From Halomicronema sp. CCY15110 (GTDB lineage Bacteria; Cyanobacteriota; Cyanobacteriia; Phormidesmidales; Phormidesmidaceae), in contig NZ_JACSWC010000134.1 of the NCBI RefSeq assembly GCF_016888165.1, forward strand, positions 1 through 33,389: a stretch of 33,389 bases of DNA, given 5' to 3'. Position numbers and translations under genes: made by a program. The notes beneath the pieces were generated by a model, which saw only the letters and a list, made by a program, of their open reading frames with translations, did no database searches and was not told the DNA's origin. Every line of letters begins with the position of its first letter. The stretch's first letter is position 1. This document shows, one piece after another, positions 6,476 through 20,706 of the stretch.

Positions 6476-8248
6476 ATGGCGCGATCGCAACAATCATCCC
6501 AGGGCAACTGGCATCTGAGAAAGCTTGGACAATATCTGCGACCCCATTGGCGACAGGTCGCCCTGGGCACCCTAGCGCTGCTGCTGGTGAATCTGGTCGG
6601 CGTGCGGATTCCCTTGCTGATACGCGATGGCATTGACGAGTTGCAGGTCACCTTTAGCTTTAACCGCATCACGTATTATGCGGTGGTGGTGCTGGTGCTG
6701 GCTTCGATCATGTGGGGCATGCGCATGGCGTCGCGCATCCTGATTTTTGGGGTGGGGCGACAGGTTGAGTTTGACCTCAAGCAGCGCATTTTTCAGCACC
6801 TGCTGGGCATGGAGCCGAGTTATTTTGCCACCAACACCATTGGCGAATTAATTAGCCGCGCCACTAGCGATGTGGATAACATTCGCCGCCTGTTGGGCTT
6901 TGCCGTGCTGAGTTTGGTGAACACCCTGTTTGCCTACGCCTTCACGGTGCCGGTGATGTTGTCGCTAAATGTGCGACTGACGGTGGTGGCGCTGGCGGTG
7001 TATCCAGTGATGTTGATTTTGGTGCGGCTGTTTAGCGATCGCCTGCGCAATCAACAACTCCGCGTGCAGCAATCCACCTCGCGCCTGAGCGAACTGATTC
7101 AAGAAGACCTGAGCGGCATTTCGCTGATCAAAATCTACGCCCAGGAAGAGAACGAGCGCCGCGCCTTTGCGGAACTAAACGATACTCTGCTGGATGCCAA
7201 CCTGACCCTCGCCCGCACCCGCAACACCCTGTTCCCGCTGTTGGGGGGGCTGGCCAGCATTAGTCTGCTGCTGATTTTGGCGACGGGGGCCGGGGCGATC
7301 GCCGATGGGGCGCTGTCCGTCGGTGACTTTATCGCCATGGTGCTGTACGTGGAACGGTTGGTCTTTCCCACCGCGCTGCTGGGCTTCACCATCACGGCCT
7401 ATCAGCGGGGCGAGGTCAGTATCGATCGCGTCGAGGCGATTCTCACCAGCACACCGAAGATTGTCGATGCGCCTACGGTTCAGGCTTTACCCAGCGAAAC
7501 GGTCAGCGGACGCCTGGAAGCCCGCAATCTGAATTTTGCCTACCCCGACAGCAAAACTCCGGCGCTCAACGGCGTATCGTTCACCATTCAATCGGGAGAA
7601 ACGGTGGCGATCGTCGGCCCCATTGGCTCCGGCAAATCGACCCTGGCCAATGCCCTGCCCCGCCTGCTGGATATTGCGCCCGGCCAAATCTTCCTCGACG
7701 GTCAGGATATTACGGACATTCCTCTGGCGGACTTGCGGCAGGCGATCGCCTACGTGCCCCAAGAGAGCTTCCTCTTCAGCACCACCATCAAGAACAACAT
7801 TCGCTATGGGGAACCGCTGGCGGAATTACCGGAAGTGAGACACGCCGCCAAACTCGCCCAAATCGCCCCCGAAATTGACAACTTCCCCAAACAATACGAA
7901 ACCATTGTGGGGGAGCGGGGCATTACGCTCTCCGGGGGCCAACGACAGCGATCAGCCCTCGCCCGTGCCCTCATGGTGGAAGCGCCCGTGGTCGTCCTCG
8001 ACGATGCCCTCTCCAGCGTCGATAACCAAACCGCCACTGACATTCTCAATAACCTGAAAACGGGAACTCAAAATCAGACGGTGCTCTTTATCTCTCACCA
8101 AATGGGCGTCGCCGCCTTGAGCGATCGCATCATGGTGGTGGATCAAGGCCGCATCGCCCAAATCGGCACCCACGACGAACTCGTCCGCCAACCCGGCCTC
8201 TATCAACAACTTTGGGAGCAACACAAACTCGAAGAAGTGCTGCTGTAA
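6476..8248 (+). CDS. ABC exporter half-transporter (fused membrane and ATPase domains)
   Basis: A 590-residue ABCB/MsbA-type exporter subunit that would pump a lipid, drug or peptide outward as a dimer. Six membrane helices lie within residues 25-310. The nucleotide-binding domain has Walker A GPIGSGKS (381-388), Q-loop VPQESF (428-433), signature LSGGQ (485-489), Walker B VVVLDD (505-510), D-loop SSVD and H-loop His541. The residue after the Walker B aspartate, normally the catalytic glutamate, is Asp510; LDDALSSVD occurs in degenerate halves of heterodimeric exporters (BmrC-like), yet no partner gene adjoins. Substrate unknown. The last 24 codons reappear about 6.5 kb downstream at 14752-14823 with synonymous changes only, so the 3' end has been duplicated around the TIR/peptidase unit. 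Confidence 0.93.
   Translation: MARSQQSSQGNWHLRKLGQYLRPHWRQVALGTLALLLVNLVGVRIPLLIRDGIDELQVTFSFNRITYYAVVVLVLASIMWGMRMASRILIFGVGRQVEFDLKQRIFQHLLGMEPSYFATNTIGELISRATSDVDNIRRLLGFAVLSLVNTLFAYAFTVPVMLSLNVRLTVVALAVYPVMLILVRLFSDRLRNQQLRVQQSTSRLSELIQEDLSGISLIKIYAQEENERRAFAELNDTLLDANLTLARTRNTLFPLLGGLASISLLLILATGAGAIADGALSVGDFIAMVLYVERLVFPTALLGFTITAYQRGEVSIDRVEAILTSTPKIVDAPTVQALPSETVSGRLEARNLNFAYPDSKTPALNGVSFTIQSGETVAIVGPIGSGKSTLANALPRLLDIAPGQIFLDGQDITDIPLADLRQAIAYVPQESFLFSTTIKNNIRYGEPLAELPEVRHAAKLAQIAPEIDNFPKQYETIVGERGITLSGGQRQRSALARALMVEAPVVVLDDALSSVDNQTATDILNNLKTGTQNQTVLFISHQMGVAALSDRIMVVDQGRIAQIGTHDELVRQPGLYQQLWEQHKLEEVLL
8177..8248 (+). repeat. Direct repeat, left copy (3' end of the ABC exporter gene)
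   Basis: The last 72 bp of the exporter gene, from GAACTCGTCCGCC to the stop codon, recur in the same orientation at 14752-14823. They differ at 7 positions (all synonymous, including TAA versus TAG). This copy is part of the intact gene. The two copies bracket the peptidase and TIR-WD40 genes and could be the attachment-site duplications of an integrated element. Confidence 0.75.
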
Positions 8249-10299: not shown

Positions 10300-13200
10300 T
10301 CATGGTGATTGGGCCGCCTTCTGGCATAGTCGCTCCACGGCGGCACTAGCGTTCAAACTGTCGTGATAGGTTTGGGTGCGATCGCAGCTTTGTCGCACCA
10401 GGGTAGATAAATCGGTATCAAAAGGCCACTGCCGACCGTAGCGGTCTGAGCCGACGGTGAGCAGCCACTGGCCATCGCGACTGAAGTAGATGTCATTGAC
10501 TGACCCGGTGTGACCATGCCACATCGCGACGAGGTGGCCAGTGGCATCCCAAATTCGTACGTAGCTATCGGCACTGCTGGTAGCCAGATATTTACCATCT
10601 GGGCTAAAGGCCAATCCCCAGACGCCGCGATGGCTCCCCTGAACAGCAGGAGCAAAATTTTGCAGGGTTTGTAGCCGCTCCCCCGTCATCGACCATATCT
10701 TCACTAAACCTTCTTGGCCAGCGGTGGCTATAGATTGACCATCCGGGCTGACCACAGCGTTATGCACATTGCCGTCATGGGCGACCCACTCCGCTTTCAC
10801 CGCGCCTGTGGTATCCACAATTTTGATGCGCCCACCTTCTTCTGCGGTTAGCAAACGAGTTCCGTCCGCTAACCAGTTCACGCGGGTGATGGGCTGCGTA
10901 CTGGTAATGTTCATTTGGGGTTGACCGTCACGGTTCCACAATATGAGTTGGCCATCAAAATCCACTGTCGCGATGATCTGTCCATCAGGGCTAAACTTCA
11001 GGTCAGAGATAAATCCCGCCGGGTCTGTAAAAAATTCCTGCAGCAGTCGCCCCTCAGCATCTAGCAGTTTTATGCCCCGAGGAGCCCGATTGAGCGTTGA
11101 CTCGTTGAAGTCGGCTGTCCCCGCGATCGCGATAGTGCCATCTTCAGCGATGTCTACCGCCTGCACAGTGCCGGCAAAACCGGGAATCTCCACTTTGCGG
11201 CTTGAGCGATGCCAGATACTCACCAATCCTTGATCGCCAACTACCGCAAAAGTGTCTTCACTCGGATGCACGGCCAGGGTGTACATTTCATTTCTTTCGC
11301 GAAAAACCGTCTTTTCGATTGACCACAGCCGAATCGTCTGATCGCGACTCGCGGCGGCAATAAACGAATCGTCGGGGGCAAAGCTCAGCTTATTGATGTG
11401 ATCGTCCGCCTGATAAGTCATCAGAAAATTGCCGTCGAGGTCAAAGAGGCGCACCTGCCCATCTGTACTTGCGACAGCCAGAACATTGCCGGTGTTGCTA
11501 AAGCGCACATCCCGCAGTTCTAGATCGGCATCGGCATCCTCTGAACTGATGGAAATAGTCGTGCGCAAACTGCCATCGGTATACCAGAGTTGCACACTGC
11601 CCGATTGGTTGGCAGCGGCCAACAGCGGTTGGGTGGGATGAAAGGCGACGGCAAACACGGTGCCGCCATCGACACTCGGTAACACTTGACGAGAAGTCCC
11701 CTCGGCATCCCATAACCGCGCCGTGCCATCGTTGCTCGCCGTGGCTAACCATTCGCCCTGCGGACTGTACGTCACATCAATCACCTGATCGGTGTGATCG
11801 TCGAGCGTCGCCACTTCCGTGCCCTCCTGGTTCCACAGTTTGGCCGTGCCATCCAGGCTGGCGGTGGCGATTTGCTGCCCATCGGGACTCACATCTACGC
11901 TGTAAACCACATCATCATGCCCAGTCAACACGGCTTGCGGTTTAGGCGGAGTCGCTGTAGACAGGGGGGTGATCGCCCAAATCTTGGCCGTTTTATCCCA
12001 GGCGGTAGTGACCAGCCACTGCCCATCGGGACTAAAGGCTAAATCGGTCAAAATGGCAAAGTTAGTCGCATACCAGTGCGCCACCGGTTGCCCGTCGGGG
12101 GTCCAGAGTCGCAGCTCCCCGTCGGCATCCCCCGTAGCGATCAGGTCACCGTTGCGGTTAAACGCTACGGTTTGCACGCCATCTTGGTGGCCGGTCAAAA
12201 TGTGGGTAATGGGAATCGCATGGTGATCGCGAATGAGATTCCCCAATACTTGAGCATTCAGCGCTGACGTATCGCTCCGAAACCCCCATAGCTGGTCGAG
12301 ATAGCTGGCAGATTTCAGGCTATTGATCAAGTTTTCCGGATCGCTGGGGTCCAAATCGTAGACGCGATCACCCGCCAAATTCAGCGCTTGAATTGTTTCG
12401 GCTAGGCCGCTTTGTGCTTGCTGTATCGTGCGATAAGAAAAGCCCAACGAGGCAACGATGATGCCGCCCGCGATCGCCAATGCCCCTCGTAAAATCTGCC
12501 GTCGCCGCTGGTCAGCCCGATAAGTCGCGCGGCTGATTTGCAAATATTCCCGCTGCAGGGCGGTAGGCGGAGGAGATTTTTGCTCGGCGTCGGTGAGCCA
12601 GATGGCGGCGGTGTCGAGTTCGGTACCACGCAGCAGGAGGCTGTCGTTGCGCTGCTTGGTTTGCCACTCCAGGGCTTTGAGAGAGAGTTGGGTGTGGGCA
12701 GCCAGGTGGTCGCGATCGCTTTCCAGCACCCGCACCAATTCTCGGAAGCTGGCGTCAAACTCGGCAGCGTCGGGGCGAAAGTCGATCCACTGGACAGGGC
12801 GTAACACTCGGTGCAGGTCTTTGGGATCGACATCGCGGCAGAGGACGGTGAGCACTCGCTTGCCCAAGGACTCGGCGTAGGTGACTTCGTCGTCGCAGTA
12901 GGGCGAGTTTACCGACTCTGGCGACAGCACAAACAGGAAGTGGTTGGCGACTTCGATGCCGCGATGGATTTCTTGCTGAAAGTCGCTTCCCGAGGCGATG
13001 CTTTCCTGGTCGAACCAGGTAGTTTTGCCCTGTTCCTGCAAGGTTTCGTTGAGCTTGCGGGCAAAGTCGCTGTCGGTGCGCGAGTAGGAAATGAAGACAT
13101 CCAGGGAGCCGACGGGGGGCTGTTGCAGGCTGGTTTCGATGAATTGGATGTGCAGCAGTGTGGGGGCACTCTGGGGGCGATCGCGGGCCACTTTCAGCCA

Positions 13201-14415
13201 GGTTTCGGCATGGCGCAGGTTATAGCCCCGCAGCAGGTGCGCCGGATTTTGCTGTTGCCGCTGCCATTTCAGCGCTTTGACCAAAAGCTGCTTGTGTTCG
13301 TTGTGGTAAGTCGCATCGGTGGCGACGGTTTTGAGCAGTTGGTCGAGTCCGGCTTGGTGCGAGTCGGACTCCGAGGGCGCAGTCAGATCAATGGCTTGCC
13401 ACCCTTGCAGGTGATCGGGTAAGTCGGTGGGCGCAACGGCGTTGACCATCACAGGAATGAGGCGCTTATGCAGCTCTAGGGCGATGGCGGTCGCCTCCTG
13501 ACAGTGAGCAGACTGTACCGACTCTGGGGAGACGACCATCACGATATTGTCAGCCTGCTCGATGCCCGTGCGCACCGCTTGCGAGACATCGGCACTGGCC
13601 TGAATGTCGGCCCCGTCATGCCAGACAGTGATGCCCTGACGTTGCAGCACCCGCCGCAGTTCATCAGCTCGGAGTTGGTCGCTGGAAATGTATGCCAAAA
13701 ACACCCGTGTCATCAAGTTTTGGGCGTTTTTGAGGCTCTCGACAATATATTCGCAGTGCAAATCCGTCGGTTCACAGGGGGGCTGGCGATCGCTGAACGG
13801 TTGGTGCAGCCAGGACTCGGCTTGTTCGCGATCACGCCCAATCAGCAGATACTGAGTTTGCTTTTGGTGCCGCTCCCAGATGAGTGCCCGGTCGAGCAAC
13901 CAAGTGTGGGTGTGAACGTAGTCGCGATCTCGTTCAATCAGTTCCAGCAAATTGCGGCACCCAGCGGCGTAGTCATCAACGCCGTCGCGCAGGTAAATCC
14001 AGTTGATTTTGCTCAGTTCGGGGGGCATGTTGGTAAAGCTGGAATGCTTACCCGCTGCACAATATGCTTGCCACTCGGTCTCGGTACCATCGGGATGGCG
14101 CTGCTGCCAGGTTGCATAGCTGATTGCCTCGACGTGCAGCAGCGGAATGATGCGCTTGCGATATTTGACAGCCAACTCCACCTCAAGGCTGCAATAGGCC
14201 GAGTTGATGGAATGGGGCGCAATGATGAAGACGAAATTGTCGGACTGCTCAATGCCGCCGTCAATCTGCTTTTGATAATCGACGCCAAACGGAATGTCGT
14301 TAAAGTCGAACCAGGTTTGCAAGCCTGCCGCCGTGAGGCGATCGCTCAACTTGGCGGCAAAGTCTCTGCTGTCTACTCGCCCATAAGAAATGAACACATC
14401 TTGGTAGTCACTCAT
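10300..14415 (-). CDS. Triple-TIR, single-membrane-segment, WD40-repeat protein
   Basis: A 1371-residue multidomain protein. TIR-like domains lie at about 5-165, 235-365 and 437-565. Each is followed by a helical linker with the pattern LLLRGxxLxxAxxWL..LQxEYI seen in cyanobacterial TIR/STAND proteins. A hydrophobic segment at 641-661 (ILRGALAIAGGIIVASLGFSY) should place the TIRs on one side of a membrane and the rest on the other. About 14 WD40 repeats (roughly 730-1330) suggest two seven-bladed propellers, followed by a short tail with QSCDRTQTY. TIR1 (C75-SLE78) and TIR3 (C507-DDE510) keep the glutamate aligned with the NADase catalytic residue; TIR2 has Ala308 there. There is no NTPase domain between TIR and WD40. 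Start ATG has ACAGGGGTG six bases upstream. It is the first gene of a probable two-gene operon with the peptidase. A role as a sensor with NAD-cleaving or scaffold TIRs is inferred. Confidence 0.9.
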   Translation of the reverse strand: MSDYQDVFISYGRVDSRDFAAKLSDRLTAAGLQTWFDFNDIPFGVDYQKQIDGGIEQSDNFVFIIAPHSINSAYCSLEVELAVKYRKRIIPLLHVEAISYATWQQRHPDGTETEWQAYCAAGKHSSFTNMPPELSKINWIYLRDGVDDYAAGCRNLLELIERDRDYVHTHTWLLDRALIWERHQKQTQYLLIGRDREQAESWLHQPFSDRQPPCEPTDLHCEYIVESLKNAQNLMTRVFLAYISSDQLRADELRRVLQRQGITVWHDGADIQASADVSQAVRTGIEQADNIVMVVSPESVQSAHCQEATAIALELHKRLIPVMVNAVAPTDLPDHLQGWQAIDLTAPSESDSHQAGLDQLLKTVATDATYHNEHKQLLVKALKWQRQQQNPAHLLRGYNLRHAETWLKVARDRPQSAPTLLHIQFIETSLQQPPVGSLDVFISYSRTDSDFARKLNETLQEQGKTTWFDQESIASGSDFQQEIHRGIEVANHFLFVLSPESVNSPYCDDEVTYAESLGKRVLTVLCRDVDPKDLHRVLRPVQWIDFRPDAAEFDASFRELVRVLESDRDHLAAHTQLSLKALEWQTKQRNDSLLLRGTELDTAAIWLTDAEQKSPPPTALQREYLQISRATYRADQRRRQILRGALAIAGGIIVASLGFSYRTIQQAQSGLAETIQALNLAGDRVYDLDPSDPENLINSLKSASYLDQLWGFRSDTSALNAQVLGNLIRDHHAIPITHILTGHQDGVQTVAFNRNGDLIATGDADGELRLWTPDGQPVAHWYATNFAILTDLAFSPDGQWLVTTAWDKTAKIWAITPLSTATPPKPQAVLTGHDDVVYSVDVSPDGQQIATASLDGTAKLWNQEGTEVATLDDHTDQVIDVTYSPQGEWLATASNDGTARLWDAEGTSRQVLPSVDGGTVFAVAFHPTQPLLAAANQSGSVQLWYTDGSLRTTISISSEDADADLELRDVRFSNTGNVLAVASTDGQVRLFDLDGNFLMTYQADDHINKLSFAPDDSFIAAASRDQTIRLWSIEKTVFRERNEMYTLAVHPSEDTFAVVGDQGLVSIWHRSSRKVEIPGFAGTVQAVDIAEDGTIAIAGTADFNESTLNRAPRGIKLLDAEGRLLQEFFTDPAGFISDLKFSPDGQIIATVDFDGQLILWNRDGQPQMNITSTQPITRVNWLADGTRLLTAEEGGRIKIVDTTGAVKAEWVAHDGNVHNAVVSPDGQSIATAGQEGLVKIWSMTGERLQTLQNFAPAVQGSHRGVWGLAFSPDGKYLATSSADSYVRIWDATGHLVAMWHGHTGSVNDIYFSRDGQWLLTVGSDRYGRQWPFDTDLSTLVRQSCDRTQTYHDSLNASAAVERLCQKAAQSP

Positions 14416-14960: not shown

Positions 14961-15872
14961 ATGAAACGGCGGCAATTGGTCGGCTGGGGACTCATTGGAG
15001 TTTGCTTGGCGCTCCTGTTCAACCTGACGGGGTGTAATCAGCGATCCGCTCCCTCCGGCGGCCCCAGCCGTTTGGTCATCGGTCTCGTTAGCTACGATAC
15101 GGGGGCGGCAGCCTCGGTCGATGCCTACACGCCGCTCAAAAACTATCTGAGCGAAGCTTTGGGGGCTCAGATCGAGCTAGAACCCGTGTTTAACGAACTG
15201 CGGGCAGTGGAGCAGATTCAGGCCCAAGCGTGGGATTTGGCTTTTGCTCCGGCAGGGTTGGCCGCGATCGCCGTCGAGGATGCGCAATACATTCCCCTGT
15301 TTCCGTTGCAGGGCAGCCCAAAACAGCGATCGGTGGTGGTCGTCCCCGCTGATAGCACCGCTGAGTCTTTGTCTGATTTGGCGAATGAAGTGATTGCATT
15401 AGGTGAGCCGGGGTCGGCCACCGGCTACTACCTACCGCTATACGACTTGTATGGGTTGACCTTTGCCGAAATTCGCTTTGCGCCGACGCCCAAGACGGTT
15501 CTAGAGTGGCTTGCTCAGGGCGACGTGGCGGCTGGCGCGCTTTCAGAAGAAGACTATCAACAATATCGCAATGAGTTTGACGCCAATACTTTGCGGGTGC
15601 TGCATGAGAGCCGCACGATCAACAACGGCGCGGTGTTGCTCAGTCCCGCGATCGATCGCAACCAGCAGCGACTCATTGAGGACGCCATGCAGGCGGCCCC
15701 GGCCAGCGTCGCCTCCGATGCCGGCTATATCGCCAACGCCGCACCTCCGACTTTTGACCAACTCATTCAGCTCGTGGACAAAGTGCGCCCCCTGGAAGAT
15801 CGTGTACGAGAGCAACCAGCGGTCTTGACGATGCCGGGCGAAGGGTCAGCGGCGGAAGAGGCGGCTCCATAA
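14961..15872 (+). CDS. PhnD-like phosphate/phosphonate-type ABC substrate-binding lipoprotein
   Basis: A 303-residue lipoprotein with a signal peptide (KRR, then a hydrophobic core) and lipobox LTGC, modified Cys25. The mature part begins RLVIGLVSYDTGAAASVDAYTPLKNYLSEALG, the N-terminal lobe of PhnD/SsuA/TauA-type binding proteins of the phosphonate-phosphite family. It continues with WDLAFAPAGLAAIA and the GEPGSATGYYLPLYDLYG segment where ligand oxyanions are usually bound by Ser/Thr. No permease or ATPase gene adjoins, so it is an orphan binding protein that may feed another transporter or a sensor. The next gene on the same strand, 482 bp away, is the cyclase-kinase. The last 30 residues are low-complexity and acidic. 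The ligand cannot be assigned. Confidence 0.88.
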   Translation: MKRRQLVGWGLIGVCLALLFNLTGCNQRSAPSGGPSRLVIGLVSYDTGAAASVDAYTPLKNYLSEALGAQIELEPVFNELRAVEQIQAQAWDLAFAPAGLAAIAVEDAQYIPLFPLQGSPKQRSVVVVPADSTAESLSDLANEVIALGEPGSATGYYLPLYDLYGLTFAEIRFAPTPKTVLEWLAQGDVAAGALSEEDYQQYRNEFDANTLRVLHESRTINNGAVLLSPAIDRNQQRLIEDAMQAAPASVASDAGYIANAAPPTFDQLIQLVDKVRPLEDRVREQPAVLTMPGEGSAAEEAAP

Positions 15873-16354
15873 AGGCCGCTCCCCCAAGAAAAGCTATCGC
15901 CGGAAAACGAGCATCTGTGACCACGCCGCAAACGGCGGGTTGCTAAAAACGGCGGGTTGCTCAGCTGGGCGTCAAGCAACGATCGCTGCTGGGACATCGG
16001 CTGGCAGAAGAAAATGACGGGCCATCTGAACTCAATGCCAAAATCGATCTGGCAGCGACATCACGGGCTTGTCATGTGATCAGAATTTCGCTGAGGACAC
16101 CCGTAAAATTCCATGAAACTGGCTCCATACTGACATCAATCACAGCGGCTTACGTTACGGTAGTCGTAAATTGATCAATAACTGTGGCAGTTACGGATTG
16201 ACGACGATCGGCGTAACGGGTACGCAGGCCCAGTTTTTTGACTGTCCTACACAATTTGTAGGTAAATCGGCAGCTCAGGGTTGAAGCATCTGATTAGTAG
16301 CAGAGCCTTTTGAGTAAAGGCCCTGACGATAGGTGGCATATTTTTCCCAATGGT
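15873..16354. other. Spacer upstream of the cyclase-kinase gene, with a 17-bp tandem duplication
   Basis: 482 bp with no gene. AAACGGCGGGTTGCT occurs at 15930-15944 and again at 15947-15961, a 17-bp period. A small hairpin, GCCTTT (16305-16310) with AAAGGC (16316-16321), lies about 35 bases upstream of the ATG used for the next gene and could affect its translation. Confidence 0.5.
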
Positions 16355-18526
16355 ATGAATTATCCGATACCTGACAACTCCCAAGGACAGCGAACCCTCG
16401 CAGCGATCGTGTTGACCGATGCGGTGGGCTTTAGTGCCCGCATGTCGATTGATGAGGAGAATACCCTCAGCCTGATTCATCGTGACTTGGGGCTAATGGA
16501 ATCCTTGTGTCAACAGTTCGAAGGACGGATGATTAAGTCTACGGGCGATGGGCTGCTGATGTGTTTTTCGAGTGCGGTGCAGGCGGTGCACTGTAGTTTA
16601 GAAATGCAGCATCAACTGGCCGATGCCTACCAGGCCATTCCCCCAGAGCAGCGCCTCGAACATCGCATTGGCGTGCACCTGGGGGATGTCTTCTTTAAAG
16701 ATGGCGATGTGATGGGCAATGGGGTCAACATTGCGGCCCGGTTGCAAACCGAAGCTCACCCAGGGGGCATCTGCATCTCACAGATTGCTTACGATGTGGT
16801 GAAATCGCGAGTGGAGCTGAACGCGACCTACGCTGGCCCGCTGCAACTTAAAAATATTCAGGAACCACAACCGGCTTACCATATTGACCCTCATGGCAAA
16901 GCGGCGACCGATGATGCCACCGCGACCTACCAAGAGTCGGTGATCTCCTCAGAGGCGACCCGGCGAGAGCCTGATCATGCGGGTTCGTCCCGAGCCAAGC
17001 TGGGGCCGGGCAGTAAGGTGGGAGGTCGCTATGTGATTCAGCGGGTACTGGGCCAAGGGGGGTTTGGCCGCTCATATTTGGTCGAAGATTCCCAGCGATT
17101 TGGGGAAGCGTGTGTCCTGAAGGAGTTTTTTCCCCGCAATGCGTCGAAGCGATCGCTGCAAAAAGCCCTGGATCTCTTCAAGCGCGAAGCCAAAACGCTG
17201 TATCAAATCAACCATCCTCAGGTGCCCAAGTTTCTGGCGGGCTTTACCCAAGAGCAACGCCTGTTTATCGTGCAGGAGTACATCGACGGCGTCACCTATT
17301 CGCACCTGCTCAAAGAGCGTAAGCGCAACGGCCAGACCTTCACTGAACCTGAGATTAAGCGCTGGCTGATTCATATGCTGCAAGTGCTGGAGTATCTCCA
17401 TGGCTTAAATATCGTGCATCGCGATATCTCTCCGGACAATGTCATGTATTGCCGCGAACGCGACCTGCCCATTCTCATCGACTTTGGGCTGGTCAACGAT
17501 GCCATGAATGAGATTTTGTCGGGCGAAGACGAGCAAGACGAGGATGCACCGCGCACGGCCACGGTGGTGGGCAAATTTGGCTATTCCCCGCCGGAGCAGA
17601 TTCAACTAGGCCAATGCTTTCCGTGTAGTGATCTGTATGCGTTGGGGGTGACCGCGATCGTCATGCTCACCGGACGCTATCCGCGCGAATTGATGAATCG
17701 CCATACCCTCGATTGGCAATGGGAACAGCAGGTGGCGATCAGCTCCTCGTTTGCGATGTTGCTGCGCCAGCTGATCCATCGTCAGCCGCAGGAGCGGTTT
17801 CAGTCGGCGTTGGCGGTGCTCGAAGCCCTCACGCCGCTGCTCGGGGTCGAAGAAGTCAGTTCCCCCCTGCCGCAGTCGATGCTCACTATGACGCGCATTG
17901 ATCTGTCGCCGGATCCCCAAGCGGCCCCGGAATTTAATGCACCGATGCACATTCGTTCGACTTCGTTGCTGCAAAATGAGGCGTTTGTCTCTCGCTGTCG
18001 AGAGGAGTTGACCCGCTGCATCGGCCCGATGGCGACCCTCATTATTGAAGACGCGATCGATCAATATCCGGATGCCAGTCCCCACGAATTGGTGGAAATT
18101 TTGGCGTCACAACTGTCTGATGGCAAACAGGCAGAGCAGTTTGTCAGCAGTATTCATTTATCGAGTGCAGCGGCCAATCCTACTAGTCAGGTGAGTCGCT
18201 CGGGGCTGACGCGATCGCAGGGAGCCACGAGTGCAGCCCGCTCCATCAGCCAGGGCCACAGCCGCGCTTCAGGGTTCCCCTCCAGTCCTAGCATCAGTGG
18301 TGAGCCGTCAACCAATGATGAGACTGGAGCAGGCTTGAGTCCAGACTTTATCCACCAATGCCAACAGGCGCTAACCCGCTGTGTCGGCCCGATGGCGGCG
18401 ATGCTGATTGAGGATGCGCTGGCCGATTATGCTCACCTCCAACGGCCCGATTTTGTCGCGCAGTTGGCAACTGAAATTCCTGATCCCAAAAAGGCGCAGG
18501 AATTTCAACAGCAGTTACTGGGATAA
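16355..18526 (+). CDS. Class III nucleotidyl cyclase fused to a Ser/Thr protein kinase
   Basis: A 723-residue fusion. Residues about 12-180 are a class III cyclase domain with metal-binding Asp22 (LTDAVGFS) and Asp65 (TGDG), Lys61, Asp118 (DVMGNGVN), and Asn125 and Arg129 (NIAAR). All expected catalytic residues are present, and the Lys/Asp pair suggests ATP as substrate and cAMP as product. Residues about 225-505 are a Hanks-type kinase: LGQGGFGRSYLV loop, Lys256, HRD Asp357 (HRDISPDN), DFG Asp376 and a GYSPPEQ activation-segment end. The C-terminus holds two related copies of a 55-residue domain, RCREELTRCIGPMATLIIED and QCQQALTRCVGPMAAMLIED, of a type found in bacterial kinases and cyclases. 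No membrane segment. The ATG at 16355 is chosen over TTG at 16310 because the domain begins soon after. Its 3' end overlaps the next, convergent gene by 12 bp. Confidence 0.9.
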   Translation: MNYPIPDNSQGQRTLAAIVLTDAVGFSARMSIDEENTLSLIHRDLGLMESLCQQFEGRMIKSTGDGLLMCFSSAVQAVHCSLEMQHQLADAYQAIPPEQRLEHRIGVHLGDVFFKDGDVMGNGVNIAARLQTEAHPGGICISQIAYDVVKSRVELNATYAGPLQLKNIQEPQPAYHIDPHGKAATDDATATYQESVISSEATRREPDHAGSSRAKLGPGSKVGGRYVIQRVLGQGGFGRSYLVEDSQRFGEACVLKEFFPRNASKRSLQKALDLFKREAKTLYQINHPQVPKFLAGFTQEQRLFIVQEYIDGVTYSHLLKERKRNGQTFTEPEIKRWLIHMLQVLEYLHGLNIVHRDISPDNVMYCRERDLPILIDFGLVNDAMNEILSGEDEQDEDAPRTATVVGKFGYSPPEQIQLGQCFPCSDLYALGVTAIVMLTGRYPRELMNRHTLDWQWEQQVAISSSFAMLLRQLIHRQPQERFQSALAVLEALTPLLGVEEVSSPLPQSMLTMTRIDLSPDPQAAPEFNAPMHIRSTSLLQNEAFVSRCREELTRCIGPMATLIIEDAIDQYPDASPHELVEILASQLSDGKQAEQFVSSIHLSSAAANPTSQVSRSGLTRSQGATSAARSISQGHSRASGFPSSPSISGEPSTNDETGAGLSPDFIHQCQQALTRCVGPMAAMLIEDALADYAHLQRPDFVAQLATEIPDPKKAQEFQQQLLG

Positions 18527-19459
18527 GTCGTTAGACGAAGAACCACTGCGTCGCCCCTCGCGATAGCGCTCTAACCGTTTCATCGCCATTTGCAAACTCA
18601 AGCGCATGCGGTTAAACGCTTCGGCCAGTTTGCCCACTTCGTCTTGCGAGTCCTGCGTGAATTCGGCCTCGGTATCGCCCATGCTGACGGCCTCGGCCAC
18701 CATTGCCATGCGGTTCAGCGGTTTAACCACGAAGCGCTTGAGCCATAGGTTGACCAGGACGATCGCCACCGCAAACGCCACGATAAAGATTCCTAAAATC
18801 AGCACTAAAGACTGTCTGGCGGCCTGCACGACTCGTTCGGCGGGGACGGAAATCATTTGTGCCCCAACGATTTCATCCAATTCCCAACCGAAGCCATTTT
18901 CGGAGCCATAGCGCTCAATCATGCTGGCCGGGGCCGCCGCTGGGGTACTGTGGCATTCCAGACAGCTTTGCTGAGTAATTTTGATGGGGCGAGCAATGTA
19001 GTAGAGATCTCCCGCTGGGGTACTGCGAAAGCCACTGACTTCTGAAGCACTGTTGGGATTGGCCCGAAAACTGTTGACGAGTTCGGTCTCAAAGGCATCA
19101 GCCTTGTCCCTCAAGTTAGTGGGGTTGAGAGTTGCTTCTTTGTAAAAAAAGTCACTGTAGTTCGGGTTCAGGCGAAAGGTTTCAAAGACCTCGCGGGCGG
19201 AATAAGCGGGCACACTTTCGGGGAGAAATTCTTCGTCCAGCCGATCCGCAATTTCGGGTTGCACCTGCTCGCTGGTGTAACCGCGAATGGCGTTCATGGT
19301 TTCCATTAGCATGAGGGCGTTGGTGGTGAGTTGGCCTTGGGTGCCGCGATTGAGCACCGAAGAGAGGGCCACACCACTGGCCAGCACGCCGCCTAAGAAG
19401 ACTAACGTGAGCAAGAGCGTAAATTTTTGACCTAGTTGCAGATTTTTAAGCTTAATCAT
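18515..19459 (-). CDS. HAMP-domain sensor with a Tll0287-like (DUF3365) c-haem domain
   Basis: A 314-residue membrane receptor-like protein. Membrane helices lie at about 12-34 and 217-240. The periplasmic part between them (about 40-215) is a Tll0287-like/DUF3365 domain ending in the haem-attachment motif CLECH (166-170), expected to bind c-type haem and sense redox state or small ligands. A HAMP domain follows (about 240-292: VKPLNRMAMVAEAV, DEVGKLAEAFNRM). The chain ends 22 residues later with no kinase, cyclase or methyl-accepting domain, so it must signal through a partner. The cyclase-kinase encoded on the opposite strand is the nearest candidate, with 12-bp overlapping 3' ends, but this is inference. 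Start ATG precedes KLKNLQLGQKF, a normal cytoplasmic lead into the first helix. Confidence 0.9.
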   Translation of the reverse strand: MIKLKNLQLGQKFTLLLTLVFLGGVLASGVALSSVLNRGTQGQLTTNALMLMETMNAIRGYTSEQVQPEIADRLDEEFLPESVPAYSAREVFETFRLNPNYSDFFYKEATLNPTNLRDKADAFETELVNSFRANPNSASEVSGFRSTPAGDLYYIARPIKITQQSCLECHSTPAAAPASMIERYGSENGFGWELDEIVGAQMISVPAERVVQAARQSLVLILGIFIVAFAVAIVLVNLWLKRFVVKPLNRMAMVAEAVSMGDTEAEFTQDSQDEVGKLAEAFNRMRLSLQMAMKRLERYREGRRSGSSSNDLSQ

Positions 19460-19746: not shown

Positions 19747-20706
19747 TCATTCTGCCGAGGCTACCGTCAGGCAGTCGTGGAGCGATCGCCAGCCCAGCCC
19801 CTCATATCGCGCCAGTTCCCGCTGGGGATGCAAAATTTCCACCAAGATTTCCAAAGAATCCACCAAGCGCGGCCCCGGACGGTTGAAATATTGATTGCCG
19901 TCGGTGACATACACGCGCCCCGTCTTGACGGCCCGGAGCATAGACCAATAGGGATGATCGCGTAACCCCCGACTCTCGCGGATCGTCGTCGCCATGTCGT
20001 AACCACAGGGCATCAAAATGATCACTTCGGGGTCAGTCTTAACGAGATCATTCCAGGTAATCCACGGGGAATGTTGACCGACTTGGGCCAGCAGCGCCCG
20101 TCCCCCCGCCAGGGACACCAATTCCGGCACCCAGTTGCCCGCCGACATCAGCGGATCGGGCCACTCGATGCACACTACCGTGGGGCGGTGAGAGACCGTT
20201 GCCACCTGCTGCTGGCAGCGGTCAACGCGGGCTTGGAGGGCCGCGATCGCCGCCTCCGCCCTGGCCGCTCCAGCATCCCCCAACAGCGCGATCGCCACCT
20301 GACGAATATCACCCCACACCTCTTCCAGACGATTCGGTTGCAGTGACAAAATTTGGGGCGATAGGCCGGTGAGGGCAGCTACCGCCGCTTCCACCTCTGG
20401 CAGACTGACGGCACAGACTTCACACTGGGCCTGGGTCAGAATGTGGGTCGGTTGCAGCGCTTGCAACACATCGGTCTTGATTTGGTAAACACTCAGCGCC
20501 GATTGCAGTAGCTGGGTCACGCGATCGTGGATTTCGCCACTGGTGCCCTCGGGATTGAATTTGGGCGCAGTGCAGGTGGGCAGCGCGGTCACCGCCGCTG
20601 GAAAATCGCACTCATGGCTACGCCCGACCTGATACTCCGTCAGGCCGAGGCAGTGCACAATTTCTGTCGCGCTGGGCAGTAGGGAAACAATTTTGAGCGG
20701 GTTCAT
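19747..20706 (-). CDS. BtuF-like cobalamin-binding protein
   Basis: A 319-residue protein of the helical-backbone (class III) periplasmic binding family. It begins IVSLLPSATEIVHCLGL, has LTQAQCEVCAVSLPEVEAAVAAL, GNWVPELVSLAGG and NRPGPRLVDSLEILVEILHP, all typical of the BtuF/cobalamin-binding group. Known members deliver vitamin B12 to BtuCD, but this one has no signal peptide or lipobox, as in many cyanobacterial homologues, and no permease genes adjoin. It may therefore act in the cytoplasm in corrinoid handling; this is uncertain. The start ATG at 20706 is supported by the conserved N-terminal strand beginning at residue 6. The gene is followed by a 287-bp spacer and preceded by a repeat-rich 383-bp spacer. 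Confidence 0.82.
   Translation of the reverse strand: MNPLKIVSLLPSATEIVHCLGLTEYQVGRSHECDFPAAVTALPTCTAPKFNPEGTSGEIHDRVTQLLQSALSVYQIKTDVLQALQPTHILTQAQCEVCAVSLPEVEAAVAALTGLSPQILSLQPNRLEEVWGDIRQVAIALLGDAGAARAEAAIAALQARVDRCQQQVATVSHRPTVVCIEWPDPLMSAGNWVPELVSLAGGRALLAQVGQHSPWITWNDLVKTDPEVIILMPCGYDMATTIRESRGLRDHPYWSMLRAVKTGRVYVTDGNQYFNRPGPRLVDSLEILVEILHPQRELARYEGLGWRSLHDCLTVASAE

Follow-up and report, generated by a model that had tools for sequence, protein, structure and literature searches.

A cyanobacterial cyclase-kinase with duplicated STAC-like modules, encoded beside an effectorless heme receptor

Halomicronema sp. CCY15110 (NCBI RefSeq assembly GCF_016888165.1, contig NZ_JACSWC010000134.1) encodes a protein of 723 amino acids in which a nucleotidyl cyclase, a Ser/Thr kinase and two copies of a short C-terminal module are joined in one chain (16355–18526, + strand, in the window of 33,389 nucleotides that was analyzed). 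The locus raises the question of what controls such a protein and what its duplicated C-terminus is for. An initial annotation had described it as soluble and had proposed that the modules may bind partners; it overlooked both the likeness of the modules to the STAC domain, which was reportedly described by Korycinski in 2015, and the association of the gene with a heme receptor that ends in a HAMP domain. It is considered probable (roughly 0.6) that the cyclase-kinase is a cytosolic effector, docked by its STAC-like modules on a separate heme receptor that has no effector of its own.

The cyclase-kinase and its family

The frame runs intact and stop-free from ATG to TAA, and the open reading frame, Pfam, the profiles and the orthologues agree on a cyclase, a kinase and two diverged C-terminal copies, as first annotated. 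The frame also extends upstream as far as a TTG at 16310; the ATG at 16355 is matched by an ATG at the aligned site in loci L002–L008. The N-terminal part is a class III nucleotidyl cyclase domain (16403–16855, +; PF00211 Guanylate_cyc, E 6.9e-13, over the cut-off), whose nearest PDB entry is 3mr7 (E 1.8e-30), and it is followed by a Hanks-type Ser/Thr kinase domain with an HRDIS catalytic loop (17030–17803, +; PF00069 Pkinase, E 2.7e-35, over the cut-off).

Class III cyclases employ two metal-binding aspartates, a lysine and an aspartate for the base, and a transition-state asparagine and arginine. All six are present here (D22 and D65, K61 and D118, N125 and R129) and none varies in 17 of 17 full-length orthologues; by the class III family rule, the pair K61 and D118 suggests that the substrate is ATP. 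In the kinase, the G-loop, the VAIK-type lysine, the glutamate, HRD, the asparagine and DFG are all found, and K256, E278, H355-R356-D357, N362, D376 and G378 are invariant in the same 17 orthologues and in 41 of 41 fusions. Among these 41, the cyclase residues show two exceptions, genome G049 (one replacement of Asn by Thr) and locus L086 (a short N-terminus), the asparagine being kept in 40. The HRDxK lysine is replaced by serine (HRDIS vs HRDIK) in all 41; hence, the claim that both domains retain all expected residues was slightly too strong, although this protein has lost none of the cyclase six or of the core kinase residues. The conserved residues are consistent with the suggestion that a single polypeptide could both synthesise a cyclic nucleotide and act as a protein kinase. 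PD-T4-6 models of PADLOC match the kinase domain, the best at E 2.2e-75, as they would if the kinase part belonged to an anti-phage defence kinase. Such a role is very improbable: the 25 matches listed (of 33) are confined to residues 199–540, the kinase and little beyond, the two neighbour proteins have no PADLOC match, and generic kinases would be expected to match PD-T4-6 likewise.

A whole-protein search of 39 related genomes gave 17 complete orthologues (the Halomicronema protein included) and one that is cut, all from one family, and two modules are present in each of the 17. A scan of named genomes, in which 79 loci were returned from the best 80 of 179 candidates, contained at least 38 loci with a cyclase-then-kinase fusion (L051–L088), from Leptolyngbya, Nodosilinea, Halomicronema, Phormidium, Adonisia and others. 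Both modules lie in a single open frame in 31 of the 38. Three more distant orthologues have one module (L084, L085, L086), in another three (L066, L080, L081) a contig end cuts the gene ahead of the modules, and the kinase of L078 is interrupted by a stop codon. In a draw of 386 genomes across the phylum (E<=1e-80, two candidates scored per genome), the matches listed that span cyclase and kinase came from G000, G001, G014 and G049, of which only G049 lies outside the family. The fusion is thus widespread within one family, and G049 and L087 are isolated finds outside it. The possibility raised at first that the frame is a sequencing join of two genes was rejected because the fusion is a conserved family: the same architecture occurs in isolates and in metagenome-assembled genomes (L051–L088), and open frames of 678–751 amino acids with two modules were found in 35 of 63 family genomes. 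Novelty had been said to fall if the fusion were widespread and already characterised; the domain-architecture search bears out the former within one family. No characterisation of the fusion, and no description of the combination of cyclase-kinase, module and receptor, was found in the literature, subscription journals being mostly outside the coverage. The parts are of known kinds and the combination appears to be new, in that no earlier description was found.

The order of cyclase and kinase, first called uncommon, is rare in a relative sense. The reverse order is found in two kinase-cyclase-NACHT proteins, one from a Coleofasciculus metagenome-assembled genome (L103:3467–6745, +) and one from Planktothrix rubescens (L127:7947–11537, +), and, by its name, in the TOMM kinase/cyclase family (TIGR03903), in which we take the order to be kinase-cyclase. 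These proteins have in common with the Halomicronema protein a kinase and a class III cyclase in one chain, but L103 and L127 differ in the order, in the NACHT part, an NTPase, and in having no STAC-like module. Against TIGR03903 the Halomicronema protein scores 101, where the curated cut-off for membership is 705.75. An unfused arrangement with a different cyclase occurs in G191, where a kinase-module gene, a receptor gene and a PhnD-like gene have an FHA-GAF-cyclase gene next to them. A close relative of the cyclase domain also forms the N-terminus of a widespread cyanobacterial protein (L089–L102, L104–L126, L128, L129), mostly with at least 400 further residues; in L090, L097 and L114, Pfam gave nothing else over the cut-off.

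The C-terminal modules

The last 220 residues of the protein have no Pfam match at E<=0.01, and an NCBIfam search of the protein listed no name for the C-terminus. Profile matches place two modules there (17978–18157 and 18338–18517, both +), of about 57 amino acids each and with a mutual identity of 36%. Profile A2, which was made from 34 fusion modules and one other and includes both, scores them at 5.8e-30 and 6.2e-30, and the independent profile A5, made from modules of non-fusion proteins only, at 7.4e-17 and 1.3e-19. No further copies were found in the host genome at E<=1 with A2. In a search for a Pfam identity of the module nothing exceeded the cut-off; PXA, which appeared for 11 of 35 members at E<=10 with a best value of 0.0004, was set aside as weak and multiply tested.

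Modelled alone from 44 diverse copies, the module (the second of the two) is predicted with a predicted local distance difference test (pLDDT) score of 96 to form four helices (residues 2–16, 20–30, 36–44 and 50–61), with an [IV]GPxA motif between the first and the second, whose G17 and P18 are invariant in the 44 rows. The top fold match in the PDB is Af1502 of Archaeoglobus fulgidus (5a1q), with a Z score of 6.5 over 61 residues (root-mean-square deviation 2.9; next Z score 4.4), a value that is low for a small helical bundle, can reflect a common arrangement and in that respect tells against the STAC likeness; Foldseek gave the same pair a probability of 0.89 and an E value of 1.0. Among 177,635 PDB sequences, Af1502 was the sole match of profile A4 at E<=10, at a marginal E of 0.085 with the GPxA in register, and the first of two matches of A5, at an equally marginal 0.053 (next 0.55). 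According to the available part of PMC4834066, an LGPx(x)A motif joins helices h1 and h2 of STAC, and proteins like Af1502 were found through their coupling to Af1503-type receptors, which end in HAMP and are effectorless.

Comparison was also made with 13 plasmid-derived SLC5-STAC proteins, namely RpuS of pNGR234b and 12 homologues. With A5, the best two of 46 hhalign windows fell at the STAC position (18.0 and 17.8; next 16.6), at a low probability (16%). The likeness is weakened by the hhalign probabilities against CbrA-type STAC, only 28, 16 and 6% for A4, A5 and A2, and by A2, which fails to match Af1502 in the PDB sequences; the similarity of module and STAC in sequence appears marginal. 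No SLC5-STAC kinase was seen in cyanobacteria, where 244 genomes gave no listed SSF open frame above 757 amino acids, and searches of plasmids with cyanobacterial SSF proteins led to none. Set against the description of STAC, the model agrees in being a predicted four-helix bundle of two hairpins within the range of about 60–90 residues, the [IV]GPxA motif occupies the place of LGPx(x)A between h1 and h2, and the gene context supplies a HAMP-ended receptor; the module is neither stand-alone nor a linker in an SLC5 or two-component protein, and Pfam gave no SSF or histidine-kinase domain in the 723 residues. Since the lines from fold and profiles are individually weak and are taken together with the gene context, STAC-like seems the best label, and membership of STAC is not claimed because that last feature of context differs. 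The early suggestion of a partner-binding C-terminus agrees with this, as the module looks partner-binding.

Outside the fusion, the same kind of module was seen in several settings. Loci L150–L157 hold a small paralogous family of 220–350 amino acids from two related genomes, in which an N-terminal part that matches no named domain precedes a single module at the C-terminus. Caspase-domain proteins at L161, L162 and L188 carry two to three C-terminal modules, with a linked receptor at L161 only. In MscS-type proteins (L043, L044, L159, L214, L216), each of which adjoins a Tll0287-type receptor, a weak match to a cyclic-nucleotide-binding domain (below the cut-off; Pfam covered L043, L159, L214 and L216) starts after the module, as if the module were inserted into that domain. 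A candidate from G262 (A2, E 0.0026) was dropped, as its open frame at L045 has no GP motif and is absent with A5; that frame is presumably aminotransferase-like.

The receptor gene and its association with the modules

Convergent with the cyclase-kinase gene, and overlapping its end by 12 bases, lies a gene for a HAMP-only receptor (18515–19459, − strand; PF11845, E 2.5e-43; PF00672, E 2.5e-13). It consists of a transmembrane (TM) helix, a Tll0287-like c-heme Cache domain, a second TM helix, a HAMP domain and a short tail, and has no output domain; hydrophobic stretches start at residue 9 and span residues 209–246. The sequence CLECH (18950–18964, −) is a CXXCH motif, which denotes c-type heme in PMC12889525, and the HAMP domain (residues 239–290; 18590–18745, −) is followed by a tail with SLQMAM. 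The features of an sCache_heme-HAMP receptor (PF11845 with CXXCH, two TM helices, a terminal HAMP domain) are thus all present. In the available part of PMC12889525, a 2026 preprint, sCache_heme is the new name of the Tll0287 domain, and nitric oxide (NO) sensor properties are reported for a homologue with two TM helices and HAMP; the architecture of the Halomicronema receptor is that of this characterised NO-binding protein.

A receptor gene was found with one receptor profile in 24 of 30 fusion loci, convergent in all 24, vs 0 of 41 loci with module-free cyclases (Fisher p 1e-13). The 30 are those with at least 1.3 kb downstream, L059, L061, L066, L075, L078, L080, L081 and L084 being excluded for a short flank or a cut gene; the controls (L089–L129) came from the same scan, with flanks of up to 8 kb, some much shorter. 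The receptor lies less than 1 kb from the fusion gene in 18 of the 24. When eleven other genes of the window were tried at the loci, the receptor gene and a PhnD-like gene were retained in many distant ones; of the remaining nine, 6476–8248 and a binding protein (19747–20706) recur with high identity in a single near locus (L051), and apart from these only two weak matches turned up, at 28% identity (L068, L075).

The same kind of receptor lies beside 17 of 38 other module proteins, for which a gene shared by two loci was counted once, L214 and L216 were excluded as fetched for their receptor, and flanks were 1.5 to 8 kb, some stopping at contig ends. These are proteins of kinase and one module (L019, L025, L026, L028, L029, L031, L033, L035) or two (L034, L037, L038, L049), a caspase (L039, the gene of L161), MscS proteins in which a cyclic-nucleotide domain matches weakly (L043, L044, L159), and one small protein (L042).

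At the genome level, the module was found with A5 in 26 of 292 cyanobacterial genomes of one draw, spread over 8 family codes, and a receptor-sized PF11845 gene (E<=1e-33, open frame of 290–405 amino acids) in 26 of these 26 vs 3 of the 266 others (Fisher p 4e-34); these are counts of PF11845 genes, HAMP having been checked in the fetched loci only. An earlier count with A2 had given 24 of 24 vs 5 of 268. In two of those five A2-negative genomes (G187, G205) the receptor adjoins an MscS-module gene, and A5 picks both genomes out by the module alone; the remaining three are G207, whose HAMP receptor has a long, different tail, G252, in which the HAMP profile used found no HAMP, and G221. Nine of the 26 genomes hold at least two module proteins, and in G001, G104, G136, G159 and G201 every module protein has a receptor of its own close by (10 of 10).

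In the receptor tails, after the HAMP domain, an SLxxAM or SLxxSM stretch occurs in 42 of 50 receptor-profile matches with distinct C-termini in module loci; the eight without it are the MscS-linked L043, L044, L159, L214 and L216, a near variant at L042, L163, and an unrelated long protein at L189. Outside module loci, 12 of 23 matches have the stretch, all 12 from genomes that carry module proteins, and 11 do not, including the second receptor of the host genome. Because of this distribution, the tail is regarded as a candidate docking site, which appears to vary with the kind of partner. The tail of that second receptor (L211:5307–6446, +) has a YFQNL motif in common with L212 and L213 and nearly with L225.

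In a different account, the cyclase-kinase would be a self-contained soluble enzyme whose modules serve oligomerisation or scaffolding by binding to one another or to further proteins, and the adjacent receptor would be a syntenic bystander. Modules are indeed often paired or tripled, they occur in proteins that have no receptor neighbour (L174–L179, L181–L185, L187, L188, L190), and 6 of the 30 fusion loci have none either (L063, L070, L071, L085, L086, L087). This account is nevertheless rather unlikely, as most other neighbours in the window that were tried are not kept in the distant loci that retain the receptor and PhnD-like genes, and the pairing with the receptor recurs with unrelated effectors and reaches 26 of 26 at the genome level.

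Docking on the receptor remains the preferred reading, and several further observations, like the six loci just named, weigh against it. The receptor is 1.1–5.7 kb away in 6 of the 24 linked fusion loci, and in G049, whose cyclase is without the catalytic Asn, fusion and receptor are far apart. Twenty of the 38 other module proteins have no linked receptor (L174–L177, L178 with two genes, L179, L181, L182, L188, L190 and nine small proteins of L150–L157), the nine being one small-protein family from two related genomes; at L186 a HAMP protein lies about 5 kb away. The protein at L163, with a weak DUF4388 match, adjoins a different HAMP-terminal receptor and is outside the 17, and the receptor at L226 adjoins a module-free TM kinase. 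One of two module proteins is linked in G309 and none of seven in G126, G177 and G319. The host genome itself encodes another Tll0287-HAMP protein (L211), whose tail is long and different and whose gene has no module in its vicinity. The limits on size and E value were chosen after the data were seen, and E<=1e-25 adds G189 and G301 (5 of 266); the p-values overstate independence and are too small, because the genomes are related.

A third member is frequent in the cassette. A PhnD-like periplasmic binding protein with a lipobox-like LTGC (14961–15872, +; PF12974, E 1.5e-36) is encoded upstream, as in 19 of the 38 fusion loci, and such genes also lie beside several module kinases and receptors. 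From this, and from the association of STAC with transport in the available part of PMC4834066, it could be argued that the input is the ligand of the PhnD-like protein, a small oxyanion or phosphonate-like solute, the heme domain setting only the redox state and the modules coupling solute sensing to the enzymes. This version is compatible with effector docking and differs from it on the input only; it is judged unlikely, as the receptor is kept where the PhnD-like gene was not seen (L052, L068, L073, L074, L076, L077, L082, L088). Elsewhere in the window, an open frame of 1371 amino acids (10300–14415, −) has three TIR_2 stretches and WD40 repeats.

A docking mechanism and its meaning

In the docking mechanism proposed here, the receptor would sense through its periplasmic c-type-heme Cache domain, the input possibly being NO or a redox signal, and the PhnD-like lipoprotein would probably supply the same receptor. 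The signal would pass through the membrane helices to the HAMP domain, on which, or on the conserved SLxMAM tail, the two STAC-like modules of the cyclase-kinase would dock. HAMP receptors are dimers and class III cyclases require a homodimer; as the receptor is dimeric, docking would join two chains, and the receptor dimer would pair two cyclase-kinases into a cyclase homodimer. Synthesis of cyclic AMP (cAMP) and kinase activity would then be gated by the signal. We infer the contact, the direction of control, the cAMP product and the NO or redox input; the fusion, its residues, the fold prediction, the neighbourhood and the co-occurrence are observed. A full-length model (mean pLDDT 69) has low-confidence linkers between the domains at residues 181–212, 505–540 and 604–658, as expected for a tethered effector. 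In keeping with the description as soluble, a hydrophobic helix was looked for in the 723-residue chain and none was found, but the word probably gives a wrong impression of a protein that seems to belong to a membrane receptor.

Other kinases, proteases and channels may be plugged in by similar modules in the same way. A quick tree was made of 46 kinase domains. One branch in it (Shimodaira-Hasegawa-like approximate likelihood ratio test 94, not starred) sets the 23 fused kinases apart from the rest, and they adjoin seven HRDIS kinase-plus-module proteins that have no cyclase (support for the union 86). HRDIK kinases elsewhere in the tree also bear modules, and, given the starred branches, the kinase-module label must have changed three times or more; judged from these sequences, module kinases appear to derive from at least three kinase lineages. 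A broader proposal, to which slightly less than even odds are given, is a cyanobacterial plug-in system, in which effectorless, HAMP-ended heme receptors are combined with a STAC-like tag that was repeatedly attached to interchangeable effectors, namely the cyclase-kinase, kinases of at least three lineages, caspases, MscS proteins with a cyclic-nucleotide domain, a pentapeptide protein and small adaptors.

Af1503 is a standard model of HAMP signalling, and which effector serves HAMP-only receptors of its kind has, to our knowledge, been an open question. The Af1503/Af1502 pair of Archaeoglobus fulgidus (5a1q) resembles the system described here in that a HAMP-only, effectorless receptor is genetically coupled to a four-helix protein with GPx(x)A between h1 and h2. 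Af1502 is a bare protein of 68 amino acids, whereas here the module is doubled and fused to a cyclase and a kinase; the sensor here is a c-heme Cache domain, unlike that of Af1503, and the genes are convergent rather than translationally coupled. In the SLC5-STAC histidine kinases CbrA, CrbS and RpuS, STAC likewise links a membrane part to an output enzyme, but it does so in cis, between the SLC5 transporter and the histidine kinase, whereas here the module is C-terminal on a cytosolic enzyme and the similarity is marginal. The available part of a 2026 preprint (PMC13022988) calls the role of STAC unclear. The closest counterpart of the receptor is the sCache_heme (Tll0287/DUF3365) protein named Target 2 in PMC12889525, which shares the two TM helices, the CXXCH Cache domain, the cytoplasmic HAMP domain and the want of a named output; the available part of that preprint reports no partner module for Target 2, whereas the receptor here adjoins an effector.

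The modules would add a small domain to those described, one for which Pfam gave no match above the cut-off. The proposed adaptor sits in one chain with easily assayed enzymes and beside its likely receptor; hence, switching of cAMP synthesis or of the kinase by contact of HAMP and a STAC-like module is directly testable. If the proposal is true, the cyclase-kinase would be a first output for sCache_heme-HAMP receptors that have none, and would correspond in bacteria, within one chain, to the NO-cyclase-kinase route; a single type of sensor could then act through a second messenger, phosphorylation, proteolysis or ion flow.

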